Virus record (IMG/VR): IMGVR_UViG_3300025928_000022
Coordinates: 1 to 37,869 of that record
Reading direction: 5' to 3' (one strand)
From: a virus
DNA length: 37,869 nt
Each line of letters starts with the position of its first letter. Position 1 is the stretch's first letter. The notes under the pieces were generated by a model. The model was not told the origin of the DNA and ran no database searches. It worked only from the letters and a program-made list of their open reading frames with translations. A program made the translations under genes and the position numbers. Shown here piece after piece: positions 3,831 to 36,904 of the stretch.

Positions 3831-4627
3831 TTTTCAAAATACTGTACGTGTCCGCATTGCTATTGGCGATGGCCGGATGCGGTTATGTTTCGGCCGACGC
3901 GGGCCACGAAAAAGTGTTGATCGAAAAGCCCATGTTCTTCGGGCACGGCGGCGTGGATCCTGAGCCGGTCCGAACCGGCCGTCAGGTCGTCGCAGCCACG
4001 ACGGACGATGTGGACGTGATCATGCAGCCGCAACAGTTTCAAATCCATGTAACGGATTTAATGACGTCCGATGGTGTTCCGCTCACGTTCGACAGCATCA
4101 TCCGCGTGCGCGTGACAGATTCCGTTATGCTCGTCAAAAGCTTTGGACCTGAGTGGTACAAGAACAACATCGAAGCGGAGTTTTTGAATCGTGTCCGGCA
4201 GGCTGTTCGGAAGCACGGCATGAACGAGACCGCCATCAGCACCATCGCGATCGATGCCATCGATCAAGAGATAACCCAGGCGATGCAGCAGCATATCGAG
4301 CGCTCCAAAATACCTTTGGAACTTCTCAAAGTCACCGTTGGTAAAGCAAATCCACCGGACGCCATCAAAAATCAACGCGTCGAGACGGCCACCCAGCAGC
4401 AGCGGATCTTAAGCGAGCAGCAAAGGAAACTGGCCGAGGATCAACGCAAGGCCGCCGAAGCATCGCGCGCCGCGGCGGACAACGCTTACCGCGAGGAAAT
4501 GCAATTATCGCCCGATCAATTCCTGCGGCTGGAGCAAATCAAAATGCAGGGCCAGGTCTGCGCGCATGCGCAATGCACGTTCCTGTTTGGTGGCGGGGCG
4601 TCGCCGGTGATTCCGGTTGGACGATAA
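3827..4627 (+). CDS. SPFH/band 7 domain lipoprotein
   Basis: A 266-aa exported protein. Residues 1-17 form a lipoprotein signal peptide with lipobox AMAG-C18. Residues about 26-175 resemble the SPFH (stomatin/prohibitin/HflK-HflC) domain: VLIEKP start, central strands DGVPLTFDSIIRVRVTD, and a helix with NIEAEFLNRVRQAVRKH. Residues about 183-225 are a Gln/Arg/Ala coiled coil (QQQRILSEQQRKLAEDQRKAAE) as in the family. Such proteins form membrane-bound rings and often control proteases. It overlaps the preceding gene as ATGA and lies in the lysis-type cluster; its job in a phage is unknown. Confidence 0.7.
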   Translation: MIFKILYVSALLLAMAGCGYVSADAGHEKVLIEKPMFFGHGGVDPEPVRTGRQVVAATTDDVDVIMQPQQFQIHVTDLMTSDGVPLTFDSIIRVRVTDSVMLVKSFGPEWYKNNIEAEFLNRVRQAVRKHGMNETAISTIAIDAIDQEITQAMQQHIERSKIPLELLKVTVGKANPPDAIKNQRVETATQQQRILSEQQRKLAEDQRKAAEASRAAADNAYREEMQLSPDQFLRLEQIKMQGQVCAHAQCTFLFGGGASPVIPVGR

Positions 4628-15860: not shown

Positions 15861-16628
15861 TCACGCCGCCTTTCTGGCAGCGAGTGACGCCTTGAGCGCG
15901 GCCATGATATCGACCGCCGCGGCTTGCGGCTTCTGGGCTTCGGGTTTGGGCGGCGCTGCGCCGGATTCCTTGGATGCGATCAAGGCCAGAATCTTTTCGC
16001 GATAGCCATCCGAGAATTTCGAGGCATCGAACGTCCCCGAATAGGCCGCAATCAGACTGGAAGCCAATTCCGATTCCGCCTCGCCGATCTGGCCCAGGTC
16101 GGTGCGGTACTCTTCCGTCGCGCGGGCTTCGTGCGCGTAGAAAAGCGTGTGCGCCACGATGCCCGATTTCCCGGCGCGGATCGCCAGGACGTGTTCGCGG
16201 CTGGACATGGTGATTTTGGCGATCGCCACCGCGCCCGAACGCTTCAGCCCGTCATAAAGCAGGGCGTAAGCCTTCGAGCCGCCCTCGTCGGGCGCGATCC
16301 AGTATGCGCTTTCATAGTTGACCGGATCGACCTGAGCGATCGGAACGAATTCCGTAATCTCGGCCACGTGCGCAGACGACGGTGCCAGGGCCTTGATTTC
16401 TTCCGGCGTCACGATCACCCAGCCTTTGCCGGTCTTGTAGCCCTTCACCACGTCGGCGGGAGCGATATCGGAGCCGTCCGATTTGACGTAGGACTTCCGT
16501 CCCACCGGTTCGAGATCCGATTTCCGGAGTTCATTGAAGCTGACCGATTCACTGCGGGCGGCACATGCTAATTTCACGGGCACGCTCACGAGTCCAAATG
16601 CGATGTGGCCTTTCCAAACGCTTGCCAT
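15861..16628 (-). CDS. ku: Ku DNA end-binding protein
   Basis: 255 aa; the start MASVWKGHIAFGLVSVPVKL is the standard bacterial Ku N-terminus, and FNELRKSD, GYKTGKGWVIVTPEEI (the lysine-rich Ku motif), AYWIAPDEGGSKAYALLYDGL and REHVLAIRAG follow in family order. The length fits bacterial Ku (about 260-300 aa). Ku forms a ring on double-strand ends and recruits a ligase in non-homologous end joining. First gene after a palindrome-type promoter. An in-frame ATG at 16700, eight bases after the -10 element, would add 24 residues; I prefer 16628 because it matches the family start and has AGAG upstream. Confidence 0.92.
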   Translation of the reverse strand: MASVWKGHIAFGLVSVPVKLACAARSESVSFNELRKSDLEPVGRKSYVKSDGSDIAPADVVKGYKTGKGWVIVTPEEIKALAPSSAHVAEITEFVPIAQVDPVNYESAYWIAPDEGGSKAYALLYDGLKRSGAVAIAKITMSSREHVLAIRAGKSGIVAHTLFYAHEARATEEYRTDLGQIGEAESELASSLIAAYSGTFDASKFSDGYREKILALIASKESGAAPPKPEAQKPQAAAVDIMAALKASLAARKAA

Positions 16629-16708
16629 TTTATTTGCTCTTTTCTCCCTCTGCATTGATTCGGGCTGGGGACCGGCTGGTTTGAAAAACCCAGGCTGCAT
16701 TACGAGCG

Positions 16709-16899: not shown

Positions 16900-17325
16900 C
16901 TAGGCGGGTGGTTTGGTGTTCGTCTCGCTGAGCACTTGCGCAATGCGCACGTAATCTTCGGTTGACACACCGAGGCGCGGCTCGGTTTTGACGGCGTTGA
17001 AAGTTCGCTCAAACGCCAGCCATCGGCAATCGGCCAGCGCCACGATGAGCGGATCTTCCAGCGCCGTCACGCGCGCGTTCCAGGCATCGATCAGACCGCT
17101 GCCGCACGCGCCCGCGATGTAGGCGGGCTCGACGACATTGTTAACGTAGTCGCGCAGGATCGCGCGTCGCGGTTTGCCGGTGATGATACGCTGCATCATT
17201 CCGGCCAGTCCTCCGAGCTGCGCAGCGAGCGCGATCGAGCGGGCTTTGTCTCGGGCGGGCAGTTGTTCCCATTCCCAATCGAGCGAAATGAGCAGACAAG
17301 CAGCCGGACGTTCTTTCAGTTTCAT
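16900..17325 (-). CDS. hypothetical helical protein
   Basis: 141 aa; CAAAGGAGAAGCC upstream decides the start. Predicted mostly helical, no family recognised. It overlaps the ligase stop as ATGA and ends the ligase operon, so it may be a ligase-associated factor. Confidence 0.55.
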   Translation of the reverse strand: MKLKERPAACLLISLDWEWEQLPARDKARSIALAAQLGGLAGMMQRIITGKPRRAILRDYVNNVVEPAYIAGACGSGLIDAWNARVTALEDPLIVALADCRWLAFERTFNAVKTEPRLGVSTEDYVRIAQVLSETNTKPPA

Positions 17326-18371
17326 TTGGCTTCTCCTTTGAATTTCAGTTGATCGATGGTGCACTCTGACGGTTCGATGTCTTCCCGCACGGCGAGAAAA
17401 ACGGACTGGCTGAGCGACCCGGATCGATGCGCGTAAAGATAACGCACTTCGACCACGGCCCCCACGGGCGGCGCGGTCTTGTTGGGCGGGATCGTGCAAC
17501 GTCCCAGCTCGGTGCCGTCAAAAAGCTTCATGTTGAAACTGGATTGCACGTTGTGAGCCGCCACGATGACCGAAGCCGTCGCGACGAATTTGTATTTGAG
17601 AGCCGGTCCGCCTGAATTGGGCCGTCCCGGTGTGTAGGGCGCAATGGCGTATTTCAGCACCACGCCTTCCCTGCCCTCGGATTTGCAGCGGGCGAACAGC
17701 GCGAGTTTGGAATCCGGATCGGTCGCCGTTTCCACCACGCGGATGCCGGATTGCGAGGATCCGAAAAGCGAATGCAGCAGCCCCAGGCGATCGCTGTAAC
17801 GGGACGCGCGCATGTCGGCGAGTCCGGCCAGCAGATCGAACGCCCAGATGATGTCGCCGATAATTTCGCCGTCAATGATGAAGGCCTCATACGGGCATTC
17901 GAGAGCGGCTTTGACGATAGTGCCGGGCAGCGTGTTGTTTACCCTGCCCGTCCGCGAATAGCTGGTTAGTCGGCCATCGCGCTTTTCTAAGATGATCCGG
18001 TTGCCGTCGAATTTCTCCTGGAAATAAATATCGGGATCGGGCGCGAGTGAAAGCAATTCCGCGTCCGTGATTTCGTTCAACAGCATGGGCTTCGGAACCA
18101 GCCTCGGACCGCATGGCTCGGGCTTGGCATCGAAGCCGACCGTTTCGAGCGGCGTCGCGTCTTCGCCGGGCGTATAGCCCTTGGCGAGTTTCTCGTTCAG
18201 CTTCGACTGATAAAGCGCGTTCGCGGCCGTCTCCGATGCGGCAGCCACGGTTTTGGTTTGCATCGTTCCTCCGCGCGGCCCCCAGGCGAATTGCACGGTG
18301 CCGTTATCGACGGAGGCGGTATAGACTTTGTCCGACCTCGAATCTTTGTAGTACAGGGTTTGGGTTTTCAT
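17322..18371 (-). CDS. ATP-dependent DNA ligase with N-terminal WGR domain
   Basis: 349 aa. Residues 1-66 resemble a WGR domain (LYYKDSRSDKVYTASVDNG, WGPRGG at 30-35), a nucleic acid end-binding module known from PARPs. Residues about 90-265 are the nucleotidyltransferase core: motif I EKFDGNR with adenylated K120, motif III DGE (168-170), motif IV EGVVLK (235-240) and motif V LKYKF (258-262). The C-terminal part (about 266-349) fits an OB fold. It seals nicks or breaks using ATP. All catalytic motifs are present, so it should be active. No polymerase or phosphoesterase domain, so it is not LigD. Ku lies about 0.7 kb downstream in a separate operon with a like promoter. Confidence 0.85.
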   Translation of the reverse strand: MKTQTLYYKDSRSDKVYTASVDNGTVQFAWGPRGGTMQTKTVAAASETAANALYQSKLNEKLAKGYTPGEDATPLETVGFDAKPEPCGPRLVPKPMLLNEITDAELLSLAPDPDIYFQEKFDGNRIILEKRDGRLTSYSRTGRVNNTLPGTIVKAALECPYEAFIIDGEIIGDIIWAFDLLAGLADMRASRYSDRLGLLHSLFGSSQSGIRVVETATDPDSKLALFARCKSEGREGVVLKYAIAPYTPGRPNSGGPALKYKFVATASVIVAAHNVQSSFNMKLFDGTELGRCTIPPNKTAPPVGAVVEVRYLYAHRSGSLSQSVFLAVREDIEPSECTIDQLKFKGEAK

Positions 18372-20424: not shown

Positions 20425-20442
20425 GCGGGCTTTGCAGCCCGC
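20425..20442 (-). terminator. terminator after metallopeptidase/VWA gene
   Basis: GCGGGCT-TTGC-AGCCCGC, a perfect 7-bp stem, directly at the stop of the 20442-21809 gene; only a short T-rich CTTT follows on the minus strand. Position fits an operon end, before the next promoter at 20387. Confidence 0.55.
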
Positions 20443-21809
20443 TAGATTAAACGGATCACCTGTCCGAACGGCGGCATGTGATCGATCCAGGCGGGCGTGA
20501 CCCATAGCACTGGGTAGTCGGGCTCGACCGGCGTATCAGACGATTCCAGATCCGTCAGATACACGGCGACGCGCGGGTGAATGTCGCGCTCCTCGACCCA
20601 ATCGAACACGGGTTGCAGGCGCGTTCCGCCGCCGCCCATGAATTCGAGCTTCACGTCATCGTCGGGCGTGAATTCGGCGGTGCCCTGGACGCGCGCGTCA
20701 CAGTAGACCGCGTGCAGGCGTTCGGGCTTGGCTTCCTGGATGATCGAGGTCAGTTCAGCGGCGAATTCGTCCAGCATCTCTTGCGAGACCGATGCGGACG
20801 TGTCGATGCCGGCGACGATCTCGCCGACCGTGTCGTGGATGGTACCGGGCAGATAGATCCCGCTCGAAATGAAACGGCGGTTGGGTGCGGTCCAGGAATA
20901 ATCGCTGGGCGCCGACTGCACGATGAATTCGCGCAGCACGGATTTCCAATCGACGATCGGTTCCCGTGAGCGTTTCAGTTCGCGCTGCAGGCCTCCGGGC
21001 AGTTCGCCCGAAGCGCGCGCGACGGCCGCTGCCTGTTCGGCGGCGATCGCCCAGTCTTCTTGCGTCATGGCTTCGTCGGCCTCCGGTTCCCCGGCCTCGA
21101 CCCCGTCCACGAATTCGCCGGTCGGACATCCGGGCATCGAACCACCTGGGGTTGAACCACCGGGCGTGGATCCGACTGTCTGACTCGCGCCGTCGTTGGC
21201 ATCGGGCGTCGAATCGTCAGTGGGATCATCCCCGCCGTTGCCGTCGGCTGTAGCGTCGCCGTCTTCCTCCTCTGATGTCGATCCATCATCGGAATCCTCG
21301 GACGCGTCTGAGCCGTCCTCTTGATCGTCTTCGTCTTCGTCGCCGTCTTCGTCCTCTTCGGGCTCCGGCTCAGGTTCGGGTTGCTGCATGGGCGGCTGTT
21401 CGGCCGCTTTGCGTTTGGCATAAATCTGCTCGGCGTACATGCCCTTGAATTCGGGGTCATTCAAAACGCCCGGCGGCAGTTCGAATCCGAATTCAACCAG
21501 CACCGGATTGATGGCGTGGTCGCAGGCGATGTTCCACTCCATCGGATCGCGCGCGCCACGGCGGTAGGGATGCAGCAGAGCGCAGTGCCAAACCTCGTGG
21601 GCGATGACGCCCAGCAATTGACGTTCGGGCAGGCTGCGGGCGAATTCGGGATTGAATTTCAAAACTGTCCCGTTGGTCTGCATGGTTTCAATCGATGGAT
21701 CCGGCATCAGCTTCAGCCGCATGGCCAGCGATCCGAAGAAGGGCTGTTCGAGCAGGAGGCGCGTGCGGGCACGCGCCATCATGAGTTCGTCTTGATTCAT
21801 GTTTGTCAT
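20442..21809 (-). CDS. metallopeptidase-like protein with VWA domain
   Basis: 455 aa. N-terminal zinc peptidase-like domain: HEVWH (71-75) with a likely third ligand in ACDHAINP (96-102), as in the putative metallopeptidase family DUF2201. Residues about 138-235 are a linker rich in Asp, Glu, Ser and Gly, with repeated TPGGS. The C-terminal von Willebrand A-like domain has MIDAS residues DTSAS (336-340), T396 in GGGGTRL and D420 in LTDLES. COG3864-like proteins with this architecture pair with MoxR-type AAA ATPases, and one lies two genes upstream. Substrate unknown. Confidence 0.75.
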   Translation of the reverse strand: MTNMNQDELMMARARTRLLLEQPFFGSLAMRLKLMPDPSIETMQTNGTVLKFNPEFARSLPERQLLGVIAHEVWHCALLHPYRRGARDPMEWNIACDHAINPVLVEFGFELPPGVLNDPEFKGMYAEQIYAKRKAAEQPPMQQPEPEPEPEEDEDGDEDEDDQEDGSDASEDSDDGSTSEEEDGDATADGNGGDDPTDDSTPDANDGASQTVGSTPGGSTPGGSMPGCPTGEFVDGVEAGEPEADEAMTQEDWAIAAEQAAAVARASGELPGGLQRELKRSREPIVDWKSVLREFIVQSAPSDYSWTAPNRRFISSGIYLPGTIHDTVGEIVAGIDTSASVSQEMLDEFAAELTSIIQEAKPERLHAVYCDARVQGTAEFTPDDDVKLEFMGGGGTRLQPVFDWVEERDIHPRVAVYLTDLESSDTPVEPDYPVLWVTPAWIDHMPPFGQVIRLI

Positions 21810-22724: not shown

Positions 22725-23804
22725 TCAGAACGTAACGTCGGAATGTTGAACGGCCCACTTGGTGAATTCGGGCGTGGACTGGAGTGAAGCGTCGCGCGTG
22801 ACGGCGTCGCGAATGGCGTAGACGTTGTACTCGACCGGTAGCCGTTCGAGATACGTCACGATGCGCGGGAAGTTTTTGTCGGACGCCCGGCGCGCTAACG
22901 CAGCCGAGATGGCATACAATACGTTGGCCTCCGTTGGCACCATCGCCTTTTTGGGATCGAGCAGGATGGCGTCGATGTTGGGCAGGCTGCGGAACAGTCT
23001 CAGGAACGCCGAATATTCGACCGCCGCGGTTTCGCCGACCGCGCCAGAGAACAGAGCGTGTTCCACTTTCGGCGCGGGGCTTTGAGCGGTGATCTGGCTC
23101 ACGAATTCCCAGGCTCGAGGATTGGGCGATACGCGCTGCTTGCGGTCGTATTGGTGAAGCAGTTCGGGGCGGAAGCGCAGGAAGGCGATCGTGACCGGCT
23201 CCCAATTGCGCTGCACGGCGAACTTACAGACGTCATCCAGATTCGTGCCCGCATCCAGATGAATGAAGCGCGCGAGCAATGCGCTGGACATTTTGGCGGC
23301 GCCGATATCGTTATCGTTGACGGCCGCTGCGGGGATCCACGTGGCGGGCATTTTGTACTCGCCAAGTTCGCCCGATAGCACGAGCGAGAAGCAGCCGTTG
23401 CGGACCATCTCCGTCCCGCGATTGATTTCGTCCAGGAAGAAAATGCCACCGCGCGGGTCGCGCGGCAGGAATTCAGGCTGCGCCCAATGCGCGCGGCCGC
23501 CGCCGTTGACTACCGGCAAGCCTCTGAGATCGACCGCGTCGAGCAGCGCGGCGCGAACGTCGCGAAACCAGGGACGGTCGGTAGTCGGATTGCCGGCGGC
23601 ATCGTGCAAATCGCCCGAGGCGTCGACGGAGCAACCGTAGCTTTCGGCGTACATCTGATCGGCGACGGATCGGGTGATATCCGATTTGCCGATTCCAGGG
23701 TCGCCGTGGATCATCGGCGCGCGGTGCGCGGCGAACAGAGTCTTCAGCGCCATCCCGAGTTCGGACGGCTTCAAGGCGTCATTGAGTTGGATCGTCGGTG
23801 TCAT
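22725..23804 (-). CDS. MoxR-type AAA ATPase
   Basis: 359 aa; AAAAAGGAGAACAAGCA before the ATG at 23804 decides this start, although the frame is open to 24020. Walker A GDPGIGKS (34-41), Walker B IFFLDE (121-126) followed by INRG, and arginine-containing ALLARFIHLD. MoxR-type ATPases act as chaperones or remodel partners that carry VWA domains. Its partner is likely the 20442-21809 protein. The start overlaps the preceding small gene as ATGA. Confidence 0.8.
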   Translation of the reverse strand: MTPTIQLNDALKPSELGMALKTLFAAHRAPMIHGDPGIGKSDITRSVADQMYAESYGCSVDASGDLHDAAGNPTTDRPWFRDVRAALLDAVDLRGLPVVNGGGRAHWAQPEFLPRDPRGGIFFLDEINRGTEMVRNGCFSLVLSGELGEYKMPATWIPAAAVNDNDIGAAKMSSALLARFIHLDAGTNLDDVCKFAVQRNWEPVTIAFLRFRPELLHQYDRKQRVSPNPRAWEFVSQITAQSPAPKVEHALFSGAVGETAAVEYSAFLRLFRSLPNIDAILLDPKKAMVPTEANVLYAISAALARRASDKNFPRIVTYLERLPVEYNVYAIRDAVTRDASLQSTPEFTKWAVQHSDVTF

Positions 23805-23917
23805 TGCTTGTTCTCCTTTTTGGAAATCTGAATTGTTTTGGGTTTGCCGATCGTGCAGAAAACGACGGTGCAGGCGATCAGCAGGAAACTGGCGAGCAGG
23901 GCGAAGTAGGGAATCAT
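23801..23917 (-). CDS. 38-aa membrane protein
   Basis: MIPYFALLASFLLIACTVVF, then a charged tail (KKENKQ): one membrane helix. It ends in ATGA with the AAA gene, and its last codons carry the AAA gene's Shine-Dalgarno, so its translation may control the AAA gene. The ATG has no strong ribosome binding site. Confidence 0.5.
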   Translation of the reverse strand: MIPYFALLASFLLIACTVVFCTIGKPKTIQISKKENKQ

Positions 23918-24255
23918 GTGAGGTTTCTCGGTTTGATTTCGGTGGATTGGTTTGGACGTCTCGCCCGGTCGGGCTAAACTGCGCGTCCTGGTCAGTTGCA
24001 TACTTGTTGGCTCGTTTCATCTGTCATCCGCTTCGCTGCATCGGGCCTCTACTTTCGCGTTGGGGATTCTAGCGGCGTCATCGCGACGCGGCGCTCCTAC
24101 ACTCGGCGATTGTTCGAGGCGGCTTGCTGTCTAACGCCCTGCGGCTCAGAAACTTGCCACTTCGTTATTCGTACCGTCGCGGTTCAAACTGCGAATCGTT
24201 TCGGTTTGATTGTCAAAGAACTGCGTTTCGTATCTCTCAAATACGTAACATCTAT

Positions 24256-24730: not shown

Positions 24731-25324
24731 GTGTCTCCATTCCCTTTCCGTTCCGCCGCTGCCGGCGAATCCTCGCGCGCATACGCCGCCTTCACGCTGT
24801 ATCGCGACCTGGGCCCGGCGCGTTCGCAGCAATCCGCCTGGCGGGAACATCTCAAACGAGCGGGACGGGGCGAGGAAACGATTTCCTGCCCGCGCACCTG
24901 GCAGGATTGGTCCTCGAAATTCGAATGGGTAGGCCGGGCGGCCGCCTACGATCAGGAAATCGACGCGCAGAGGCTGAAAGCGCGCATCGAGAAAACCCGG
25001 GAGCTCGAGGAACGCCGCGCGCAATTTGAATTCGAAAACCAGGACAGGTTAGAGAAGCGGGTCCGCAAGGCGGAAGCGGTTCTCGACAAAGCCGATTCGG
25101 CGCCCATCACCGACGTCACCCAATCGAAGGAAGAAATAGTCAAGGGCAAAGCCACCAGCACCAAGACCAAGGTCAAGGGCATCAATTTCTCGGGCTACGC
25201 GGCGCTGATGAATAAAACCAACGAGACGGCCCGGCAGGCGATCACGGGCGTCCGCGCTGACAAAAACTCGGAATCGAAACCCGGCGCCGTCCAGGAAGTC
25301 GACGGTCTGATCTGGACGGAATGA
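24731..25324 (+). CDS. putative terminase small subunit
   Basis: 197 aa from GTG. The N-terminal part (YAAFTLYRDLGPARSQQSAW, then WQDWSSKFEWVGRAAAYDQE) follows the pattern of small-terminase-like proteins just before terminase large subunits, and a Lys/Glu/Arg coiled coil follows (about 75-120). Small subunits bind the packaging site and regulate the large subunit. The stop overlaps the large subunit start as ATGA. The start is uncertain: no clear ribosome binding site is seen. Confidence 0.6.
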   Translation: MSPFPFRSAAAGESSRAYAAFTLYRDLGPARSQQSAWREHLKRAGRGEETISCPRTWQDWSSKFEWVGRAAAYDQEIDAQRLKARIEKTRELEERRAQFEFENQDRLEKRVRKAEAVLDKADSAPITDVTQSKEEIVKGKATSTKTKVKGINFSGYAALMNKTNETARQAITGVRADKNSESKPGAVQEVDGLIWTE

Positions 25325-26763
25325 ATCGCCGAGAGTTTCTGGCGGCCACTGTCATGGCCGGGCAACTTCCCAAGCGTAAAATCCGGTACGCCATCGACCC
25401 TGATACGGGCGACGAGCGCAAGCCCTTCGAATGGCAGACGGCCTTTCACCGTTCGCCGGCGCGCTTCAAGGGATTCTCCGGACCGGTCGGATCCGGCAAA
25501 TCGCGCGCCTTGTGTTCGGAAGCTCTAAAACTGGCCTATTTGAATCGCGGCCGGACTGGCGTCATCGGCGCGCCGACGTATCCGATGCTGCGCGATTCGA
25601 CGCGCGCGTCGTTTCTGGAAATCCTGGAAGAGAACCGGATTCCCTACCGGCTGCATAAGTCGGAAAACTCGATCTATCTGCCGGAAGCCAGATCAACGAT
25701 CCTGTTCCGCGCTCTCGATTCCTTCGAACGGATCCGCGGCACGAATCTGAGTTGGTTTGGGGTAGACGAATTAACTTACTGCAAGCCCCAGTCCTGGCTC
25801 CGGCTCGAAGCCCGGCTGCGAGATCCCAAGGCCACGCATCTGTGCGGGTTCGGATCCTGGACGCCCAAAGGCTTCGATTGGGTTTATGACCGCTTCATCG
25901 GCCCCGATCGCAAGCCCGGCTATGAGGCTTTCCGCGCGCGGCAGAATCCGACGCTGGGAGATTATTACCAGCGCCTGCAGGAAAGCTACGATCCCAGGTT
26001 TTTCCAGCAGGAAGCCGAAGGCGAATATCTCAACGTCTTTTCGGGCCAGGTCTATTATCCGTTCAACCGCAAAGATCACTTGAGACAAATCGAATACTCG
26101 CCGGCGCATCCGATCTGGTGGGCGCTCGATTTCAACGTCAACCCCATGTGCTCGGTGATCGGGCAGACCTACGGCGGAATCATCCGGGTGTTGGACGAGC
26201 TGGTGCTCTCGAATTCGAATACGCTGGCCGCCTGCGAGGAATTCCTGGCGCGCACCGCACACATGCTCGCGGCCCGCAAAGTCCCGGAAGTTCCCGAAGA
26301 CTGGCTCGAGCAGCAGGGTGTAGGCTATCCGCTCGATCCGCCGGCGCCCTTGAACGTGTACGTCTACGGCGATCCGGCCGGCACGCAGCGCAAAACCTCG
26401 AGTTCGAGAACCGACTGGCAGATCGTGCGCGAGTTTTTCGGCCGCTACACCGATAAGTTCAAGGTGCAACTGCGCGTTCCCGAAGCCCATCCGCTGGTCA
26501 AGGACCGCGTGAACTGCGTCAACGCCATGCTGCTGAACTATGCCGGCGAGAAGCGCATGTATCTGGATTCCAAATGCCGCGAGCTCGCCAAGGATTTCGA
26601 GCAGCTGGCATGGAAGGCGGATCCGAACGGAAACCCGCTGTCGGAACTCAATAAATCCGATCCGATGCGATCGCATCTCTCGGACGCCTTGGGTTACATG
26701 ATCGTCCGCGAATTCCCGATGAAACGCAAAGCCGGCGAGCGATCGGGCCCGCCGCTCGTCTGA
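25321..26763 (+). CDS. terL: terminase large subunit
   Basis: 480 aa. ATPase part: Walker A GPVGSGKS (54-61), Walker B FGVDE (146-150). Nuclease part: RNase H-like strands with acidic residues D270 (ALDFNVNP), D351 (YGDPAGT) and D455 (HLSDALGY). It packages DNA into the prohead and cuts it. The first residues, MNRREFLAATVMAG, resemble a twin-arginine signal, unexpected for a cytoplasmic motor; a second start at M12 would remove it. Start overlaps the previous stop. Confidence 0.9.
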   Translation: MNRREFLAATVMAGQLPKRKIRYAIDPDTGDERKPFEWQTAFHRSPARFKGFSGPVGSGKSRALCSEALKLAYLNRGRTGVIGAPTYPMLRDSTRASFLEILEENRIPYRLHKSENSIYLPEARSTILFRALDSFERIRGTNLSWFGVDELTYCKPQSWLRLEARLRDPKATHLCGFGSWTPKGFDWVYDRFIGPDRKPGYEAFRARQNPTLGDYYQRLQESYDPRFFQQEAEGEYLNVFSGQVYYPFNRKDHLRQIEYSPAHPIWWALDFNVNPMCSVIGQTYGGIIRVLDELVLSNSNTLAACEEFLARTAHMLAARKVPEVPEDWLEQQGVGYPLDPPAPLNVYVYGDPAGTQRKTSSSRTDWQIVREFFGRYTDKFKVQLRVPEAHPLVKDRVNCVNAMLLNYAGEKRMYLDSKCRELAKDFEQLAWKADPNGNPLSELNKSDPMRSHLSDALGYMIVREFPMKRKAGERSGPPLV

Positions 26764-27350: not shown

Positions 27351-28187
27351 ATGGGCCATCCTATCCAGAATCCTCCTGGGAGCCTAGTCAGCTCGTCTTC
27401 GGGGTGGCCTGTCATTTCCAAACCCTGCCGCTATGGCGAGATGAGTTTCTACGCCACCGATAAGTGGCTGGGGCGATCGCTCGATCTGTATGGCGAGTGG
27501 TCGGAAGGCGAAGCGGACCTGCTGCGCGCGGTGTTGAAGCCCGATGATTGTGTTGTCGAGGCTGGTTCGAATCTTGGAGCGTTGACGCTTCCGATGGCCG
27601 AGATCGTGCGCGAAGGGGCCGGGAAAGTGTGGGCGTTTGAGCCGCAGCCGGAGATCTTCGACATGCTGCTGCGGAATCTGTCAGCCTATCCGCACAGCGT
27701 GCATCCGAGCCGCCGCGTGTTAGGCAAAGCGAATGACGTCCGGATGCTTGCCCGCGTCGATTATTCGAAAGGCACCTGTAATCCGGGCGGCTTCGAGGCT
27801 CTCGAAGATTGCGAGACTGGAGTGCCCACGCCGGCAACTACAATCGATTCGCTCAATTTCGACCGACTGGATCTGATCAAGGCCGACGTCGAGGGCATGG
27901 AGCTGGATGTTCTCGCCGGCGCGCAGCGCACGATCCTCCACTATCGGCCCTTGCTCTACGTCGAAGATGACCGCGAAGAAAAACGGGCGGCGTTGCGAGC
28001 CTGGATCCTCGAGCAGGGCTACCGGATCTATTCGCACCAGCCGCTGCTCTACAACCCTGGCAATTTCAACGGCTATAAAGTCAATGTATTTCCGAACATC
28101 GTCTCCGCGATGCTGTTTTGTGTCCCGGTGGAACGGGGTCCGGAATTTCGGAACGTAACGAATCAGTTGGAAAGACTACGCGCGTGA
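27351..28187 (+). CDS. FkbM family methyltransferase
   Basis: 278 aa. SAM-binding motif VVEAGSNLGALTL (68-80), then VWAFEPQPEIFDML and the family motif IKADVEGMELDVLAGA (about 176-191). FkbM enzymes methylate hydroxyl groups of sugars or polyketides. A TPR-glycosyltransferase gene follows, so it may add a methyl group to a phage-encoded or host surface glycan. ATG directly after the repeated promoter; no ribosome binding site is visible. Confidence 0.8.
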   Translation: MGHPIQNPPGSLVSSSSGWPVISKPCRYGEMSFYATDKWLGRSLDLYGEWSEGEADLLRAVLKPDDCVVEAGSNLGALTLPMAEIVREGAGKVWAFEPQPEIFDMLLRNLSAYPHSVHPSRRVLGKANDVRMLARVDYSKGTCNPGGFEALEDCETGVPTPATTIDSLNFDRLDLIKADVEGMELDVLAGAQRTILHYRPLLYVEDDREEKRAALRAWILEQGYRIYSHQPLLYNPGNFNGYKVNVFPNIVSAMLFCVPVERGPEFRNVTNQLERLRA

Positions 28188-28673: not shown

Positions 28674-29006
28674 ATGCCATACGCAGAAGATCTAAAACCG
28701 GAAGACGTGCAATGGTGCGACACCTGCAGAGACCAGCAGGCGGGTCACTGCGGGGGCTGCAATCGCGAATTCGACGCCAGCGACCGCATGATCTACAAGT
28801 CGCAATCCTGCCACTTCCATCCGGGAACGGTGCTGGGAATTCCGGGCTCGATGGGCATCTACAAGAAATTGTGCGTGGAATGCTATCGAATCGATTTCGC
28901 CAAGGTATATCCGAAGACGCCGGTCCCGAGTCTTCCCGATCGGGTGCCTATTCCACGCCCCACGGGCGCGACGGTGATAGCGCCGCTAGCCCTGCCCAAA
29001 CTATGA
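28674..29006 (+). CDS. hypothetical zinc-binding protein
   Basis: 110 aa with CDTCRDQQAGHCGGC (about 15-29) and CVEC (about 67-70), a likely zinc-ribbon pair. Pro-rich end. Stop overlaps the next start (ATGA). An AT-rich stretch just upstream (ATTGAATTAAATACATAAAG) could be a promoter; this is not supported by a repeat. Confidence 0.5.
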   Translation: MPYAEDLKPEDVQWCDTCRDQQAGHCGGCNREFDASDRMIYKSQSCHFHPGTVLGIPGSMGIYKKLCVECYRIDFAKVYPKTPVPSLPDRVPIPRPTGATVIAPLALPKL

Positions 29007-30313
29007 CGCCTGCCGCTGAAAACCCGAACCGGCGGATCCTCGATCTTGTGATGGAACTGGCCTCCGGGGTCCGGCACCGCCAAGAAACGCTCGCGGCCGC
29101 GGTTCTCGAAACGGATCCCGGCAACATCAAAGCCCTCCAAATCCTGGGCCGAATCCGGGCCACTCAGGAGAAAGCGGATGTAGCGCGGCGATATTTCGAA
29201 CGGGCCCGGGAATTCGTCGATTTGAGCGTATTGCTGACCCGCGAGCGGAAATACGAAGAGGCCTTCGTGGCCGCCGAGCGCGCGATCGAATCGGATCCCG
29301 TCCGCGCCCACGCGCAGCTGGCCGGCCTCTATTCCGAGATCGGGGGCGCGCAGAGATCCATGCAGCGGCATACCGATCTGGGCCTGGCTCTAGCCCCGGA
29401 TCATGCGCAGCTCCGGATGTACCGCGCGATTCTGGCGCTGGGGCGTGGAGACTTCCCGGCCGGCTGGGCGGACCTGAAGTATCGCGCCTGGCATCAGCAG
29501 CTCGCGCAGAGCTGCCCCTGCCCGGAATGGAAGGGCGAGCCGCTCGAAGACAAAACCTTGCTCGTCATCGGCGAGGAAGGCATGGGCGACCAGGTCATGT
29601 ACGCCCGCTTTCTTCCGGTGCTCTGGAAATTCCATCCGCAGCGGATTCTACTGCGGCCCGGCGACGCGCTGGCACGTTTGTTCCATGAATCTTTTCAAGG
29701 CATCGAAATCGTGAACAGCCAGGGCGAGATGGAGGGGGCGGACGTCGATTACTGGATCGACACGGCCTCGCTCGGTGCGCTCGGGCTCGAGGATCGCGGA
29801 ACGGTCGGGATGGTCAGCCCGTATCTCCGGATAAACCCGGAATCCGGGCGACGCGCGGCGCGGCTGCTTGCCCTCCTGTCTCCTACAAGCGGCCGCCTGC
29901 GAGTTGGCCTGGTCTGGGCGGGACGGCCGGAACATCCGCAGGATCGCAACCGGTCACTCACGTTCCAAGATTTCGCGCCGCTGCTCGAGTTGGAAGGCGT
30001 GGACTTCTACTCGATGCAATTTGGCACGGCGGCAGCCGAGAACGATCGCATCCCGGATCTCGCTGGGCATTGTCTCGACGCCTATGATTCAGCGGCCATG
30101 ATGGAGAATCTGGACCTGCTGATTTCGGTCGACACGCTGCCGGTCCATATTGCCGGCGCGCTTGGGAAACCAGTCTGGGTTCTGGTCCGGAATCCGATCG
30201 ACTGGCGCTGGGGCAATCCCGAAGAACGCAACGACTGGTATCCGACGGTGCGGCAGTTCCGGTATCAACCGATGGAGCAAGTGGCCGAAGCCCTGCGGGA
30301 GCTGACCAAATGA
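29003..30313 (+). CDS. TPR glycosyltransferase-like protein (GT9-like)
   Basis: 436 aa. The N-terminal half (about 1-175) consists of TPR-like helix pairs (ALQILGRIRATQEKADVARRY). The C-terminal half has the pattern of TPR-linked glycosyltransferases: LRVGLVWAGRPEHPQDRNRS, FYSMQFG, DAYDSAAMMENLDLLISVDTLPVHIAGALGKPVWVL and a final WRWG...WYPTVRQFR. These are cytoplasmic enzymes thought to move a sugar onto proteins or lipids. Encoded between small zinc proteins, two genes after FkbM: probable glycan-modifying pair. The start overlaps the previous stop. Confidence 0.75.
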   Translation: MTPAAENPNRRILDLVMELASGVRHRQETLAAAVLETDPGNIKALQILGRIRATQEKADVARRYFERAREFVDLSVLLTRERKYEEAFVAAERAIESDPVRAHAQLAGLYSEIGGAQRSMQRHTDLGLALAPDHAQLRMYRAILALGRGDFPAGWADLKYRAWHQQLAQSCPCPEWKGEPLEDKTLLVIGEEGMGDQVMYARFLPVLWKFHPQRILLRPGDALARLFHESFQGIEIVNSQGEMEGADVDYWIDTASLGALGLEDRGTVGMVSPYLRINPESGRRAARLLALLSPTSGRLRVGLVWAGRPEHPQDRNRSLTFQDFAPLLELEGVDFYSMQFGTAAAENDRIPDLAGHCLDAYDSAAMMENLDLLISVDTLPVHIAGALGKPVWVLVRNPIDWRWGNPEERNDWYPTVRQFRYQPMEQVAEALRELTK

Positions 30314-30667: not shown

Positions 30668-30925
30668 TTGAGAAGAGCTATCGTTCTGTTGCTGGCCATC
30701 TGCCTCTCGATCCGCGCGCAGGGCAACTCTCATTCCGTCACGCTGTCGTGGACCTGGTCGCAGGGGACCGGTGATCTCCAGGTCGTCGCCGGAGCCACGT
30801 ATTATTACGTGATCACGGCCTTCAATTCCGGGGGTGATTCACCGTACAGTAACCAAGTTACTGCGGTGATACCCTTTCAAGTCCCATCCTCCGCACCCGT
30901 AGGCTTGACAGCCACGGTCAAATAA
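30668..30925 (+). CDS. exported Fn3-like fragment
   Basis: 85 aa from TTG preceded by AAAAGGAG. Signal peptide MRRAIVLLLAICLSIRAQ. The rest looks like a fibronectin type III domain with its central strands missing: an initial HSVTLSWTW joined to VVAGATYYYVITAFNSGGDSPYSNQVTAVIP, which normally lie about 30 residues further apart. Either a shortened functional domain or decay. Confidence 0.5.
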   Translation: MRRAIVLLLAICLSIRAQGNSHSVTLSWTWSQGTGDLQVVAGATYYYVITAFNSGGDSPYSNQVTAVIPFQVPSSAPVGLTATVK

Positions 30926-30933
30926 AACGCTCC

Positions 30934-32175
30934 ATGCATCTCCGTGTCGTCATCGGCATTTGCGCCTGCGCGTTGGCCGTGTCTGCGCAGAATCCCAATA
31001 CCGCGCGCTGGCCAGCCTTTAACGCGGGCGATCCCGATCTGTTCGTGGTCACCAACCGGGCGCAGACCAGTCTGACCGCGCCCATCGACAACGTCACTAC
31101 CACGTTTCCGGTGGCGAACATCTCTCTTTTTACTCCGCCCGTGATCGTGACCATCGAAACGGAAGTGATGCATTGTGCGGTCGCTGGCGGCGTGCTCCTG
31201 CAAGGCTGCGTGCGCGCCCAGGAAGGAACGGTGGCCGCGGCCCATCCCTCCGGCGCGTTAGTGTTCGGCTACTTCTCGGCCTGGCACTACAACCAGGTGG
31301 CGGCGGAGATCAAGGCCATCGAAGCCAACGCGACCAAACTGCCAGCCTTCAACAATCTGGGTACGCTATCGGGCACGCCCACGTTCCCGGTGACCGCACA
31401 AATTCAGACGTTCAAAATCACGCTCAACGGCGCCGTCACTTCCTCGACGCTGGGTACCCCGATCTCGAACGGTCTGGTTTATTTCGACGTCTGTCAGAAC
31501 GGCACGGGCGGATTCACGTTCGCCTGGCCGGCGGGATTTTCACTGGCGCAGATCGTCTCGCCGTCTCCCAATACCTGCAGCGTGCAGGGTTTTCAGTGGG
31601 ACGGCGCCGCGGCGATTCCTCTTTCCCCGGGAACCGCTACTGGCTCGACTTTCCCCGACGTGAAATACATGCCGGCGGCCGATTGCGTCAACGGGATGGC
31701 CGGTTCGGGTTGGTCGACGGGTCTCACCCCCGCCGCTCTTTGCCGAGCGGGCACGAACAATAAAGAGGCCTTGTTGAGCCCCTGGGGCGCGAGCGACACC
31801 GCGCAGCTTTCGATGCATTTGTCCAAAGATTGGAATTCCACGATCAACCCCTCGGTGAGCCTGGATGTGACCTCCACCGATGCGACGAACGGCCACACCA
31901 TCATCATGCAGCTGGCGACGGCTTGCGATAAGGGCGATGGATCGACCACCGACGACGTCGCGTTCAATTCGCCGCAATCGTTTTCGACCATCACGCTGAA
32001 CGGAAACGCCAACCGCACCTGGACTGCGACCTTAAACAACATCACCATGACGGGTTGCGCCGCGCCGGGGGTCTTGCGCCTTCAGCTCAGCCGTACAGCC
32101 GATACGGCCACGAATGTCGGAGTGATCGGACTCGCGATTACAGTCCCCAGAACGCTCATGCTACAGGCCAATTAA
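30934..32175 (+). CDS. Sec-exported beta-rich protein, fibre-like
   Basis: 413 aa. N-terminal signal peptide MHLRVVIGICACALAVSAQ (cleavage after AVSA). The rest is beta-rich, low-charge, with Thr, Asn and Gly, as in phage tail fibres; the segment TGGFTFAWPAGFSLAQI resembles a beta-sandwich module of tail proteins. An exported virion-like protein is unusual for a phage. Few cysteines. Function unresolved: fibre, adhesin or secreted binding protein. Confidence 0.55.
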   Translation: MHLRVVIGICACALAVSAQNPNTARWPAFNAGDPDLFVVTNRAQTSLTAPIDNVTTTFPVANISLFTPPVIVTIETEVMHCAVAGGVLLQGCVRAQEGTVAAAHPSGALVFGYFSAWHYNQVAAEIKAIEANATKLPAFNNLGTLSGTPTFPVTAQIQTFKITLNGAVTSSTLGTPISNGLVYFDVCQNGTGGFTFAWPAGFSLAQIVSPSPNTCSVQGFQWDGAAAIPLSPGTATGSTFPDVKYMPAADCVNGMAGSGWSTGLTPAALCRAGTNNKEALLSPWGASDTAQLSMHLSKDWNSTINPSVSLDVTSTDATNGHTIIMQLATACDKGDGSTTDDVAFNSPQSFSTITLNGNANRTWTATLNNITMTGCAAPGVLRLQLSRTADTATNVGVIGLAITVPRTLMLQAN

Positions 32176-32334
32176 ATGCCCGAAAATCAATCGGCTCAAT
32201 TGGACACGAGTGAACTCGGAACCTTCCTGCTGGGCGCCACCGGAGTATCGGCCTCGAGCGCACCTGCAGGCGTTCCATTCGTCGCCGAATGTCAGCCCGT
32301 GATTATTCAGAAACTCTACAGCTTCGTCGCTTGA
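32176..32334 (+). CDS. 52-aa hypothetical protein
   Basis: ATG immediately after the previous TAA; MPENQSAQLDTSELGTFLLG..., acidic at the start, a Ser/Ala/Pro-rich middle, ends KLYSFVA. Protein-like sequence without known relatives. The gap to 32385 contains only a short repeat, TTGACGCTTGACGC. Confidence 0.45.
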   Translation: MPENQSAQLDTSELGTFLLGATGVSASSAPAGVPFVAECQPVIIQKLYSFVA

Positions 32335-32384
32335 CGCTTGACGCTTCTTCACCGCTAAACACTTCCAACGCCGCGAATACTTTG

Positions 32385-34460
32385 ATGAAACTTCTTTTCG
32401 CACTATCGACGATCATCGGTTGCGCTTTTGCCCAACAGCAGGAAGTCCCGGCCGCCCCGCCCTACTGCCCGGATACCGGATCGGCCAATGCCATTGTCTG
32501 CAGCACAACCCTGGGCCTGGCGAATTACACCAAAGGCCAAACGATCCTCGTAAACGTTGCGGCCGCAAATACGACGGCCACCACGATCAATCTGAATAAT
32601 CTCGGAAGCAAGAATGTCACCAAAAACGGGAACGCCGCGCTGACTGGCGGCGAGTTGTCCGCAGGCGGGATTTATTTGATGAGCTACGATGGCCTTGAAT
32701 TCGTGCTGAACGGCGGCACGCCCAACGGGACGGTATTCCTCAACGGCGGCACCAACGTGATCGCTGCGGCGCTCGCGGCCAACACCACGATACGCATCAC
32801 CGCCGCTACTACGCAGAGCGTAGCGTTAGCCATAACGCAAGCCCACGTCAAACTGGTCTGCGATCCAGATGTTGTGCTGACCTTAAGCACTACGTCTTCG
32901 ATCATCACCGATACGGGGGATTATCTTGATTTCTCCGGCTGCATCATCGACGGGAACTCTCAGAACACTGCCAGCGCTCCTATCGTCATCAACGCCAATC
33001 ATTCCAGGGTGCATGGTTTGGTGAGCCAGAACATGGGGACGAATGCCTCTGATGGAGAGATTAAGGTCACTGGAGGACTGGACAATCACGTATACGACAA
33101 CAAGTTGATTGGCGTAGACCGGCTCATCTATCTCAATCCTTCCGCCGCTGTGATCGATTCTCCCTATGTCGAAGAAAACTATTTACAACAAACAACAGTC
33201 GGTGGCGCTATTGTCATGCAGTCTGGTACGAACGGCCTGCTTCATCCCTTCATTATTCACAACACCATCAGAACGGCCACAAGATGCGTTTATCTGTTTA
33301 CTGGTGCCGCAGGACTAGTTCACGACATTCATTGGTCCTCGAACGATTGCCTGTTAAACGGCACATCCGGTGACGAAGGCTATTCGACTTACGGCGCGAT
33401 AGCCGGCGAGATCGACGGCAACATCATGGACGACACCGGCTTCAGTCTGATCGGTAGCAATTTCTTTGGTCTCCATGATCTTGCTGAGGTTTCAATCACG
33501 CGCAACAATTGCCATGCCACCGGGAACCAAGGAAGCTGCTTCACTCTTCTGGATACACAGAGAGTGACGATGACCGGCAATGTGATTGGTGGCGGAATCT
33601 TAAGCTCCGGTGTGGTGTCGAACGGATTCGCGGCGGCTGGGATTGGGATTGACATGGTGCAATCGGCTGGCACGGTCAACTCGGGCGGCAATATCATCGC
33701 GAATAACACAATCGTTACGCCACTGAGTTTTACAGGAAAAGCGATCCGCGCCGGTTGTTTCGGGGCCAATACCGGATCGACTTGCTCGGGCGATATCATC
33801 GCCGACAATTACATCTTCGCATCGGGCGGAACTTGTATCGAGATTACGACCTCGGCGAGCAACACCAACGCTAGCTCGCAAACCGAACACAACCATTTGG
33901 AAGGATGCACGACCGGTATCACTGTGGACTCGGGGGTGACCAATGCGCGCATTGGTAATAACGAGATGATCGGGGTGACAACGGAAATCTCCGACGCCGG
34001 GACCGCGACCCACTTCGAGCCTCAGTGTCACGTCTACAACATCAGCAACTCGACTACGAATCTTGCGGTGACGCAGGATGGCGGCCCAGCTACGCTGACG
34101 ACGAAATTGGGCGCTCTTACACAGAGCCTTCCACTCTTCACAATGTCTCCGTTGATGGTCATTACCGGTTACACGATCAAGACCGTCACGGCTTTTACGG
34201 GAACGGCGACGCTCGTGAGCACATTCGGAGACTCGTCAGGGCCTTCGCCTACTGCATACAGCAGTAACACTTTCAACCTGCAAACCGCTGCTGGTCCTAC
34301 CATCTTTCAAGACCCCTCTGGCGGTGGCGTGACACTGCCAAAGCACGTAACGGAAGCGGGCTCAAACACCTTCAACCTCGTGCTAACGTCAACGACGCAA
34401 AACATCTCTTCGATTTCGGCGGGCAGTGTGGATGCAAGAGTCTGCTGGGAAGCGCCATGA
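32385..34460 (+). CDS. tailspike-like parallel beta-helix protein, exported
   Basis: 691 aa. Signal peptide MKLLFALSTIIGCAFAQ. Residues about 35-100 are a widespread tail fibre module (YTKGQTILVNVAAANTTATTINLNNLGSKNV...YDGLEFVL). Then a right-handed beta-helix of the pectate lyase type (about 105-560) is seen in repeats like IIDGNSQNTASAP, NHVYDNKLIG, RVTMTGNVIGGG, NIIANNTIV and HNHLEGCTTGI. A beta-sandwich-like end follows. This fold is used by phage tailspikes to bind or cut polysaccharide. The export signal is unusual. Base composition is visibly more AT-rich than the left half. It overlaps the next start. Confidence 0.7.
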   Translation: MKLLFALSTIIGCAFAQQQEVPAAPPYCPDTGSANAIVCSTTLGLANYTKGQTILVNVAAANTTATTINLNNLGSKNVTKNGNAALTGGELSAGGIYLMSYDGLEFVLNGGTPNGTVFLNGGTNVIAAALAANTTIRITAATTQSVALAITQAHVKLVCDPDVVLTLSTTSSIITDTGDYLDFSGCIIDGNSQNTASAPIVINANHSRVHGLVSQNMGTNASDGEIKVTGGLDNHVYDNKLIGVDRLIYLNPSAAVIDSPYVEENYLQQTTVGGAIVMQSGTNGLLHPFIIHNTIRTATRCVYLFTGAAGLVHDIHWSSNDCLLNGTSGDEGYSTYGAIAGEIDGNIMDDTGFSLIGSNFFGLHDLAEVSITRNNCHATGNQGSCFTLLDTQRVTMTGNVIGGGILSSGVVSNGFAAAGIGIDMVQSAGTVNSGGNIIANNTIVTPLSFTGKAIRAGCFGANTGSTCSGDIIADNYIFASGGTCIEITTSASNTNASSQTEHNHLEGCTTGITVDSGVTNARIGNNEMIGVTTEISDAGTATHFEPQCHVYNISNSTTNLAVTQDGGPATLTTKLGALTQSLPLFTMSPLMVITGYTIKTVTAFTGTATLVSTFGDSSGPSPTAYSSNTFNLQTAAGPTIFQDPSGGGVTLPKHVTEAGSNTFNLVLTSTTQNISSISAGSVDARVCWEAP

Positions 34461-36904
34461 TCAGAAAAGTAGTTTTATTCCTTCTCGTCGCTGGGTTGCC
34501 AGGTTTCGCGCAGAGCAAAGATGCTCTTGGCGGATTAAGCAGCGTTACCCTCTCGGGCCATCCGGCCAAGCAAGCCGCGACCTGTAGCCAGTCAAGTACC
34601 ACTCAGACCTGTACGGTTACAACCGGCTCGGCATTTCTTCTCAATGAACCGATAGTGATCTCAGGAAGCGGCACGGCGATGGACTGGGTATTCGATGGTA
34701 CGGATGCCCTGGTCGGCGCCAGCAAAATCACCAACATCGTTGGGAACACTTTGACGCTGACGGCCCATGCCTCGGCCACCGCAGGCTCGACCGCTGGCAC
34801 AATCGCTCCCGCTTTTTACTACCCCGAACTCAAGAGCGGAAGATGGTGGCTCGCCAATCCCTTTAACCACGGAATGTTCGTTGAAGGCGTCGGCCCAATT
34901 ACTCTGATCGGAACTTCAAAGTACGGCTGTGCGGGCGGTCAGTGCACTGCGGCGGCCAATGCCATTTTCAGCGAAATGAAGTCCTGGAACTTCAACGCCA
35001 TCGGTAATGACGTTAGTGGTTTCTTCTCCCCGGTTGGCGGCTCCTGTAGCGGAGCCTGCGGGCCGCTTCCCCAATTGATGAACGACTCGGGCGATCTCTA
35101 CTCGATTATCGCCACCATCCCAGGCGGGACGTTCGCGGCTTACGGCACTCACCCGGTAAAAGACTTGTCTCTGTGCATTAACCCCACGCAGATGACGGCC
35201 TCATTTGCCTCGTTCCTGGACTACTTCGATTCCGGGTTCTCCGCCTTCCTCACCCAGTTCTTCGCCGGGTTCGGAGGGGCGGTCGCGCTTAGCAACAACC
35301 CCATGATCATCGGCGTGTCGGTCGGAAGCGCGGATCAATTCTACGGGCTGGGGGCAGGGCCGGATTTCGATACCGTCCCGGCTGGCCGGAATCAAAGCGA
35401 CATGGGGCTTCTGGTGTCTGTCACTTCGCCGCTGCTGACCTTCACGTCCAACACTGCATATGCCGGTCTTTCGACTCCCTACGCTGACCCTAAGAATTAC
35501 TCACGCACAGGCGCGGCCTACAATCCTTACGGCAATTCAACGACTGGCTCTCCACCGGCTACCTGCCAGATCTCTACGCCCTGCACATATCGCGACTACA
35601 TGGCCAAGAAATACGGGACCATCGGGGCACTCAATACGGCCTGGGGAACGAGCTACACAACCTTCGACAGTTCGGCTACCGTAGTCACTGCCGAAACGTT
35701 CGGAACAGGGACCGGCGTTCAGCTTACCTTCAATCACACCTTTGCCTCAACGCCAGATCCCAATTCCATTCAGATCAAGTTAGCGGGAACTGTCATCGGC
35801 GGCGACTGCCCCGCCTTTCGAGCATTCAATCCTTGCGCGGCAGGAACCGGCAAAGGCTTCCTGGGTGGCACCAACATCACCCTCACGTCCAGTTCGGTAA
35901 CTTATGCGACCGGAGTCGCGACGATTGTGTTCTCAGCCGCGCCTGTCAATGGTGCGGCGATCACGGTCAACTACACCCATAACGGATGGGGGCCGAACGG
36001 TACTGGCTTAATGGATGAAGATGGCCGGAGCGCCACCCTCACAGGCCACAACGGTATTTGCCTGCTTCCGGTGGCCGACCCCACGACTCCTGGAACCGAT
36101 GGCTATGCCTGCCGTCCCGGCAATCCAGGGAGCCAGTTAGCGCCGGATGCCAACGCCACATTCGCCGCTGATGTAGAAGGCTGGATCTCTCAGTACGTCA
36201 GCCAATACGAAAGCTCCATTAAGACGAGTTTCAAGGCGGTCAATCCGCATCTGCTATTGTTTAGCCCCGAAACCACCGGCACCTGGGGTGCTCCTCCGAA
36301 CCGGCGCATTATCGACGGAATGGCTCCGTATGTAGACGTCTCGTTCCACAACGTTTTGATGACACAGCCTTCGACAGCGCAGGGGCAGGCTATGTACGCC
36401 TATATGTCGAAAGAGTTCACGGGTCCGATGTTCAATCTCGACTTTCCCAACGCCTGTAACGATTCGGCGACGGCGGGTGTGGAACTGGGGCTTAACTGTT
36501 CGAATGACTTCAATCAGGCCACGCAGCCTCTACGAGCAGCGCAATACTACTCGACTGTCAACGCCATGCTGAACAATCTCAGCTTCAATTCTACGCACCA
36601 ATGGATTGGCTTGGATTGGTGGCAGTTACACGACAACGACGGCCCCGACAACCCGATGAACAATTGGGGCCTGTGTGACGCGAGCGACAATTGTTACAAC
36701 GCTCACGATGCCGTAGCTGGCACAGTCGCTTGCGCCGCACCTCTCGCGGCCTTTACCTGCGGCTCCGAACCTGCTCCTGGTGGATCGGCAGTGCGGCCGT
36801 TCGGAGATTTATTCGGTGGATTAACCGGGGTTACGGCGGCCAATGCTTTGTGGTTTGGGTCGGTCCTGGCCGCGCCGCTCAATCAATTTCCCAGAGTCCA
36901 GTAA
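34457..36904 (+). CDS. exported glycoside hydrolase-like protein
   Basis: 815 aa. Signal peptide MIRKVVLFLLVAGLPGFAQ. After a beta-rich part (20-120), a TIM-barrel-like body: WWLANPFNHGMFVEGVGPI (about 130-150), MKSWNFNAIGND, then KKYGTIGALNTAWGTSY, a motif seen in GH42- and GH5-like sugar hydrolases. A beta domain of the virion type (about 415-510: VQLTFNHTFASTPDPNSIQIKL) interrupts the barrel; the barrel resumes with LLLFSPETTGTWG and QWIGLDWWQLHDND. Candidate catalytic acid E in SPETTG. Expected role: depolymerase of host surface polysaccharide. Confidence 0.6.
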   Translation: MIRKVVLFLLVAGLPGFAQSKDALGGLSSVTLSGHPAKQAATCSQSSTTQTCTVTTGSAFLLNEPIVISGSGTAMDWVFDGTDALVGASKITNIVGNTLTLTAHASATAGSTAGTIAPAFYYPELKSGRWWLANPFNHGMFVEGVGPITLIGTSKYGCAGGQCTAAANAIFSEMKSWNFNAIGNDVSGFFSPVGGSCSGACGPLPQLMNDSGDLYSIIATIPGGTFAAYGTHPVKDLSLCINPTQMTASFASFLDYFDSGFSAFLTQFFAGFGGAVALSNNPMIIGVSVGSADQFYGLGAGPDFDTVPAGRNQSDMGLLVSVTSPLLTFTSNTAYAGLSTPYADPKNYSRTGAAYNPYGNSTTGSPPATCQISTPCTYRDYMAKKYGTIGALNTAWGTSYTTFDSSATVVTAETFGTGTGVQLTFNHTFASTPDPNSIQIKLAGTVIGGDCPAFRAFNPCAAGTGKGFLGGTNITLTSSSVTYATGVATIVFSAAPVNGAAITVNYTHNGWGPNGTGLMDEDGRSATLTGHNGICLLPVADPTTPGTDGYACRPGNPGSQLAPDANATFAADVEGWISQYVSQYESSIKTSFKAVNPHLLLFSPETTGTWGAPPNRRIIDGMAPYVDVSFHNVLMTQPSTAQGQAMYAYMSKEFTGPMFNLDFPNACNDSATAGVELGLNCSNDFNQATQPLRAAQYYSTVNAMLNNLSFNSTHQWIGLDWWQLHDNDGPDNPMNNWGLCDASDNCYNAHDAVAGTVACAAPLAAFTCGSEPAPGGSAVRPFGDLFGGLTGVTAANALWFGSVLAAPLNQFPRVQ

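Follow-up and report, generated by a model that had tools for sequence, protein, structure and literature searches.

Four genes between positions 30668 and 36904 of the window, a 37,869-bp linear IMG/VR virus record analysed over its whole length, each begin with a Sec-type signal peptide (SP), as identified with a rule-based Sec scan (starts at 30668, 30934, 32385 and 34457). The best reading of these genes, to which we give slightly less than an even chance, is that they encode phage adhesins and hydrolases that are exported by the Sec system and probably join virions at lysis. Moreover, about 16 phage or prophage lineages have fibres or tailspikes with signal peptides (a manual count, uncorrected for shared ancestry), and the majority of these lineages are tied to Acidobacteriota.

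The contig belongs to the tailed phages, where it is placed by its terminase large subunit (25321–26763, + strand; PF03237, E=1.5e-8; phrog_2, E=8e-45). A major head protein is encoded at 944–1807 (+ strand; phrog_283, E=1e-8) and has relatives in 79 loci, whereas no portal, tape measure or other tail genes were recognisable within the 37,869 bp. The head protein gene lies far from the terminase gene, although the two are only a few kilobases apart in relatives; given this spacing and the unrecognised portal and tape measure, part of the genome may be missing from the contig, or its gene order may be permuted or rearranged. As tail genes are unrecognised in the window, its synteny does not place the four genes in a tail module, and we infer the host of the phage only via relatives.

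In the interval from the terminase to the leader-bearing genes, the window encodes an FkbM methyltransferase (27351–28187, + strand) and a TPR protein, one end of which is weakly glycosyltransferase-9-like (28712–30313, + strand); these two might modify fibres or host sugars. A Ku protein (15861–16700, − strand; PF02735, E=3e-36) and a nearby ATP-dependent DNA ligase with a WGR domain (17322–18371, − strand; PF01068) form a possible end-joining pair of the phage. Further genes encode a DUF2201 metallopeptidase/VWA-like protein (20442–21809, − strand), a protein that is AAA ATPase-like by eye and has no Pfam match (22725–24020, − strand), and an SPFH/Band 7 protein (3752–4627, + strand; PF01145) with a lipoprotein-like N-terminus and a match to PHROG 200 'lipoprotein'.

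Signal peptides and background level of the Sec scan

All four leaders possess the n-h-c structure with small residues at −3 and −1, and in each a Q follows the predicted cleavage site. The leader of the 30668 ORF, MRRAIVLLLAICLSIRA (about residues 1–17; 30668–30718, + strand), has an SP score of 8.91 and is preceded by AAGGAG 8 nt upstream of a TTG start; its cleavage site is less clear than the others, with I at −3 if the cut falls before the Q. The 30934 gene carries an 18-residue leader, MHLRVVIGICACALAVSA (30934–30987, + strand), and those of the 32385 and 34457 genes are MKLLFALSTIIGCAFA and MIRKVVLFLLVAGLPGFA, respectively. The four N-termini quoted in an earlier note on this DNA are present in the sequence, with one start moved: the first ATG of the third ORF, at 32289, gives no leader, and translation probably begins at Met33 (32385). 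A small ORF of 52 aa (32177–32334, + strand) lies between the 30934 and 32385 genes and has no relatives among the loci searched.

The Sec scan evaluates n-region charge, h-region hydropathy and small residues at −3 and −1. Across the window and related phages, it flags 46 of 754 genes, with a false-positive rate of 0.6% per gene on shuffled N-termini. Of the 1,321 possible starts of ORFs of at least 80 aa in the window, 11 are positive, including those of the four leader genes. Among the control phages, the scan flagged one of 23 annotated proteins in lambda, namely Lom, which is truly exported, and none in Flavobacterium phage FCL-2 (0/27 annotated proteins) or Synechococcus phage S-H1 (0/23). 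The scan also has misses, one being an obvious leader at L140:8403, MRWLWSILLPAVLLA, which is followed by QNPN.

A chance run of four hydrophobic starts was rejected on the basis of the low background in shuffles and among window starts. Tat signals were rejected because the SRRxFLK-type motif is absent from all four leaders, and a lipoprotein reading because none has a lipobox cysteine at the cleavage site.

Predicted products behind the leaders

The 30934 product (30934–32175, + strand; 413 aa) is tail-fibre-like. Its mature N-terminus, composed of the first ~115 mature residues (30988–31338, + strand), is a conserved particle-anchoring-type domain (alignment A4) that starts with QNPN directly after the cleavage site, and it is the only one of the four proteins with such a domain. 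The AlphaFold model of the domain is of moderate confidence (core pLDDT of 70–86, mean of 57) and matches 48 viral models at E<=1e-3, several named tail fibres included. The product also shows a weak match to the tail fiber family phrog_11439. A match of the domain to a Vibrio 'major capsid' entry was short and weak, and was discarded as evidence of relationship.

The A4 domain is common to the 30934 product and the 864-aa fibre proteins of L114 and L115, which contain GGTGAS and phage-tail-repeat motifs, and it is also present in L140. In Bryobacterales genomes, it is found in prophage-type genes of L183, L184 and L185, all of which have leaders. Beyond this domain, the L183 and L185 proteins are pectate-lyase-type tailspikes (PF12708; tail-spike PHROGs), and their genes sit among head-tail or tail-like genes, as judged by eye. 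A phylum-wide search yielded a further leader-bearing case in a prophage-like context, L238. The same joint of leader and A4 domain is thus present in unrelated phages (the window, L114/L115 and L140) and in four prophages (L183, L184, L185 and L238). Elsewhere, the domain lies deep inside leader-bearing proteins (L235 and L242), in structural-type proteins without a leader (L236, L237 and L240) and in cellular proteins with FDFDGDRKADLAVFRP repeats (L241, L243 and L244); the last group suggests that phage fibres and host proteins have exchanged sequence. This distribution points to a virion-type module that also enters host proteins, with the leader as an addition to it. A Bryobacterales prophage-like block (L198:7959-11607) has four leader-like genes in a row, in an arrangement like that of the window, and one of them shares the middle domain of the 30934 product.

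The 32385 product (32385–34460, + strand; 691 aa) is repetitive and beta-helix-like, with weak family matches only, including a NosD-type beta-helix match below the cut-off (E=0.0019); a tail-like body is plausible. Its first ~100 mature residues are also found in leader-bearing host proteins encoded beside polysaccharide-type genes in Bryobacterales cellular loci. The ORF at 30668–30925 (+ strand; 85 aa) comprises a leader and a partial fibronectin type III domain (fn3, E=0.0057, below the Pfam cut-off) and is possibly a remnant.

The 34457 gene (34457–36904, + strand) overlaps the stop of the preceding 32385 gene with its start and encodes an 815-aa GH50-like protein (clan GH-A type) with 19 Cys in the mature part. 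The joint profile of its family (A5) shows similarity to the barrel of the GH50 beta-agarase 4bq2 (E=6.3e-21); the best match of the ORF alone is to a beta-galactosidase (E=0.57), and its single-sequence AlphaFold model has a pLDDT of 33. The GH50 acid/base glutamate, the E of FIDNEK (Q in 4bq4, which we take to be a catalytic mutant), aligns with a GSA segment of the 34457 product, and this position is non-Glu in the protein and most of its relatives. Because this glutamate is unconserved, the protein was not filed as GH50, and an agarase identity was rejected. Its cellular relatives in Bryobacterales reach 1,270 aa and contain Ig-type repeats, one of them with a possible leader.

The tail-like bodies that the earlier note ascribed to these proteins are well supported for the 30934 product and plausible for the 32385 product; the 34457 product is predicted to be a GH50-like, hydrolase-type protein rather than a tailspike, and the short 30668 ORF is possibly a remnant. 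Exact-peptide scans of IMG/VR with the 32385 and 34457 products returned no relatives, nor did tblastn searches with the former in phages and the latter in plasmids. A reading as SP-bearing endolysins was rejected, as the four proteins have no muralytic Pfam or PHROG match.

Recurrence and maintenance of leaders in relatives

Relatives of the terminase led to seven long records (G001–G007), in which a conserved tail protein (alignment A1) closes the tail module. All of the A1-encoding genomes (12/12) are titled Acidobacteriota (Bryobacterales, Solibacteraceae, Acidobacteriaceae or Terriglobia). Directly behind A1 lies a fibre family, A3, which always bears a leader (L097, L099, L105, L106 and the Bryobacteraceae contig L136). 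The A1 proteins themselves start with MSETIYKLQPDRT or similar and are leader-less, except in L116 and perhaps L121. In L116 (5953–9459), a leader is fused directly in front of this core tail protein (MIKVISMLILGAVSTRA, then ADTVYKLQPDRT), which has gained it. A leader is also fused to a textbook fibre start, QSTPYIGLALPAQGTKNWNTALNNNFTVID, in L216, the host of which is unknown. In the relatives L097, L099, L136, L183 and L185, the leader-bearing genes lie within the tail module. Ten proteins from phages of other hosts, the majority homologous to the L183 tailspike, are all leader-less. The family phrog_11548 (pectate lyase), which is classed as moron by PHROGs, aligns to the L183 protein from residue 6 on.

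Tunturi 1 and Tunturi 2 are closely similar podoviruses of Tunturiibacter that were isolated in culture (PMC11924767); the paper makes no mention of signal peptides. In Tunturi 1, signal peptides are present on gp12, gp13, gp14, gp16 and gp17, that is, on five of six consecutive tail-region genes, leaving few large fibre candidates leader-less, and the same five have them in Tunturi 2. The annotations of these proteins include tail spike, tail fiber, pectin lyase and virion structural protein. The siphovirus Tunturi 4 has leaders on gp111 (from an upstream start), gp113 and gp114, whereas the Sec scan found none on the tail genes of Tunturi 3, and the trait is therefore not universal. Tunturi 1, 2 and 4 resemble the window in encoding consecutive large, Cys-rich tail-region proteins with leaders; however, the mature sequences differ apart from general fibre motifs.

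In two pairs of A3 proteins, the leaders are 38% and 35% identical, compared with 73% and 88% for the mature parts, and despite this drift the leaders retain their hydrophobic core and cleavage site. The leaders look functional because they are kept while their sequence drifts; an assembly element would conserve its sequence, and a passenger would decay. Among mature proteins of 400 aa or more, the median Cys content per 100 residues is 1.86 in those with an SP and 0.77 in those without (p=7e-7), and the number of Cys is even in 22 of 30 and 108 of 250 proteins, respectively. Both features would fit disulfides made outside the cytoplasm, although this argument is suggestive only, since leader-less tailspikes elsewhere reach 2.4 Cys per 100 residues. 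The recurrence suggests that Sec-exported adhesins are a recurrent route in Acidobacteriota phages.

Proposed export and virion docking, and comparison with known systems

In the mechanism that we propose, the four genes would encode Sec precursors that the host translocates during infection, signal peptidase would remove a leader of 16–18 residues, and the Cys-rich mature proteins would fold outside the cytoplasm. The 30934 product, and probably also the 32385 product, would act as host-recognition fibres or spikes. Since the cytoplasm is where heads and tails are assembled, contact between the adhesins and the particles would come only once lysis opens the envelope, and the adhesins would then dock via the N-terminal domain directly behind the cleavage site. 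The host-related 34457 product may bind or cleave sugars and would be exported likewise, either as part of the virion or as a free protein acting on envelope or matrix. In textbook tailed phages, fibres are built in the cytoplasm; finished particles of classical phages can, in extracts, still acquire fibres and spikes. As a general proposal, many tailed phages of Acidobacteriota may follow a two-compartment assembly, with Sec-exported, periplasm-oxidised fibres or spikes joining cytoplasmic heads and tails at lysis; this we put forward tentatively, as somewhat less probable than not.

The earlier note had proposed that the phage exports adhesins and depolymerases. Export has gained in weight, as the leaders look functional and recur in Acidobacteriota phages, isolates included; the note had missed a third option, that exported proteins are still virion parts and join the particle at lysis, which we rank first. 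This ranking rests on the scarcity of further large fibre candidates in Tunturi 1 and 2 and on the retention of anchoring-type domains. The main rival, close behind, is that the products are exported and processed but stay out of the virion, serving the infected or lysogenic cell as free adhesins or hydrolases. Free secretion is quite possible, if less likely than not, and could serve, for example, to block receptors against superinfection, loosen exopolysaccharide for release or change the host surface. The signals would be real in this case too, given the low background of the Sec scan; the 34457 product and part of the 32385 product resemble host proteins in cellular loci, and the moron-classed phrog_11548 aligns to the L183 tailspike. 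Furthermore, lambda lom, an exported non-virion gene among tail genes, is a precedent that counts against the virion reading. What free secretion leaves unexplained is why the mature N-terminus retains domains of the fibre-anchoring type, why signals are present on nearly all large fibre and spike candidates of Tunturi 1 and 2, and why the core tail protein of L116 has a leader.

Capture of host secreted proteins, also raised by the earlier note, is borne out insofar as the 34457 product and the first ~100 mature residues of the 32385 product match Bryobacterales cellular proteins, several with leaders. That the leaders came with such proteins or domains by recombination and are passengers without a role for the phage is nevertheless improbable: domains are indeed common to phage and cellular proteins, and the 30668 ORF resembles a leader with a truncated Fn3 domain, but passengers should decay, whereas the A3 leaders stay functional-looking amid their drift, and leaders recur on several unrelated fibre families. 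Least probable is that the hydrophobic N-termini act in the virion (for example in membrane insertion or assembly) or that the annotated starts are wrong, as the weak ribosome-binding sites of three of the four genes might suggest; against this stand the classic n-h-c layout, in which small residues precede the cleavage site and a Q follows it, a leader sequence that is unconserved, unlike an assembly element, and the clean Sec-scan controls.

If export followed by docking or free secretion is correct, this phylum-associated use of export signals on fibres and spikes would mean that assembly takes place in two compartments or that infected cells release a class of phage adhesins and hydrolases. 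Both possibilities would bear on the way in which soil phages locate hosts in a polysaccharide-rich matrix. Some 'viral carbohydrate-active genes' of soil would then be exported adhesins rather than metabolic genes. The question is directly testable, as Tunturi 1, 2 and 4 exist in culture. No prior report of this pattern of signal peptides on tail fibres or tailspikes was detected in the open-access literature searched, a scope that leaves novelty unproven.

In this literature, host Sec use by phage proteins is discussed for endolysins that carry a signal peptide or a SAR sequence (PMC6116005). The four proteins are likewise phage products with Sec signals, but are adhesin- or hydrolase-like and have no muralytic domain. 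The GH50 beta-agarases (4bq2 family) are similar to the 34457 product by the A5 profile (E=6e-21), and differ from it and most of its relatives in the acid/base residue, which is Glu in neither the product nor most of these relatives. Lambda Lom, an exported lysogenic-conversion protein, has a signal peptide and is encoded among tail-fibre genes; however, it is an outer-membrane protein of 206 aa, and neither a fibre nor a hydrolase. Phage tail fibres and tailspikes, such as the pectate-lyase-type tailspikes of Kuttervirus SE14, differ in that the known homologues tested are without a signal peptide (0/10), but share the anchoring-type N-terminal domain, the repetitive or beta-helix bodies and homologous modules.
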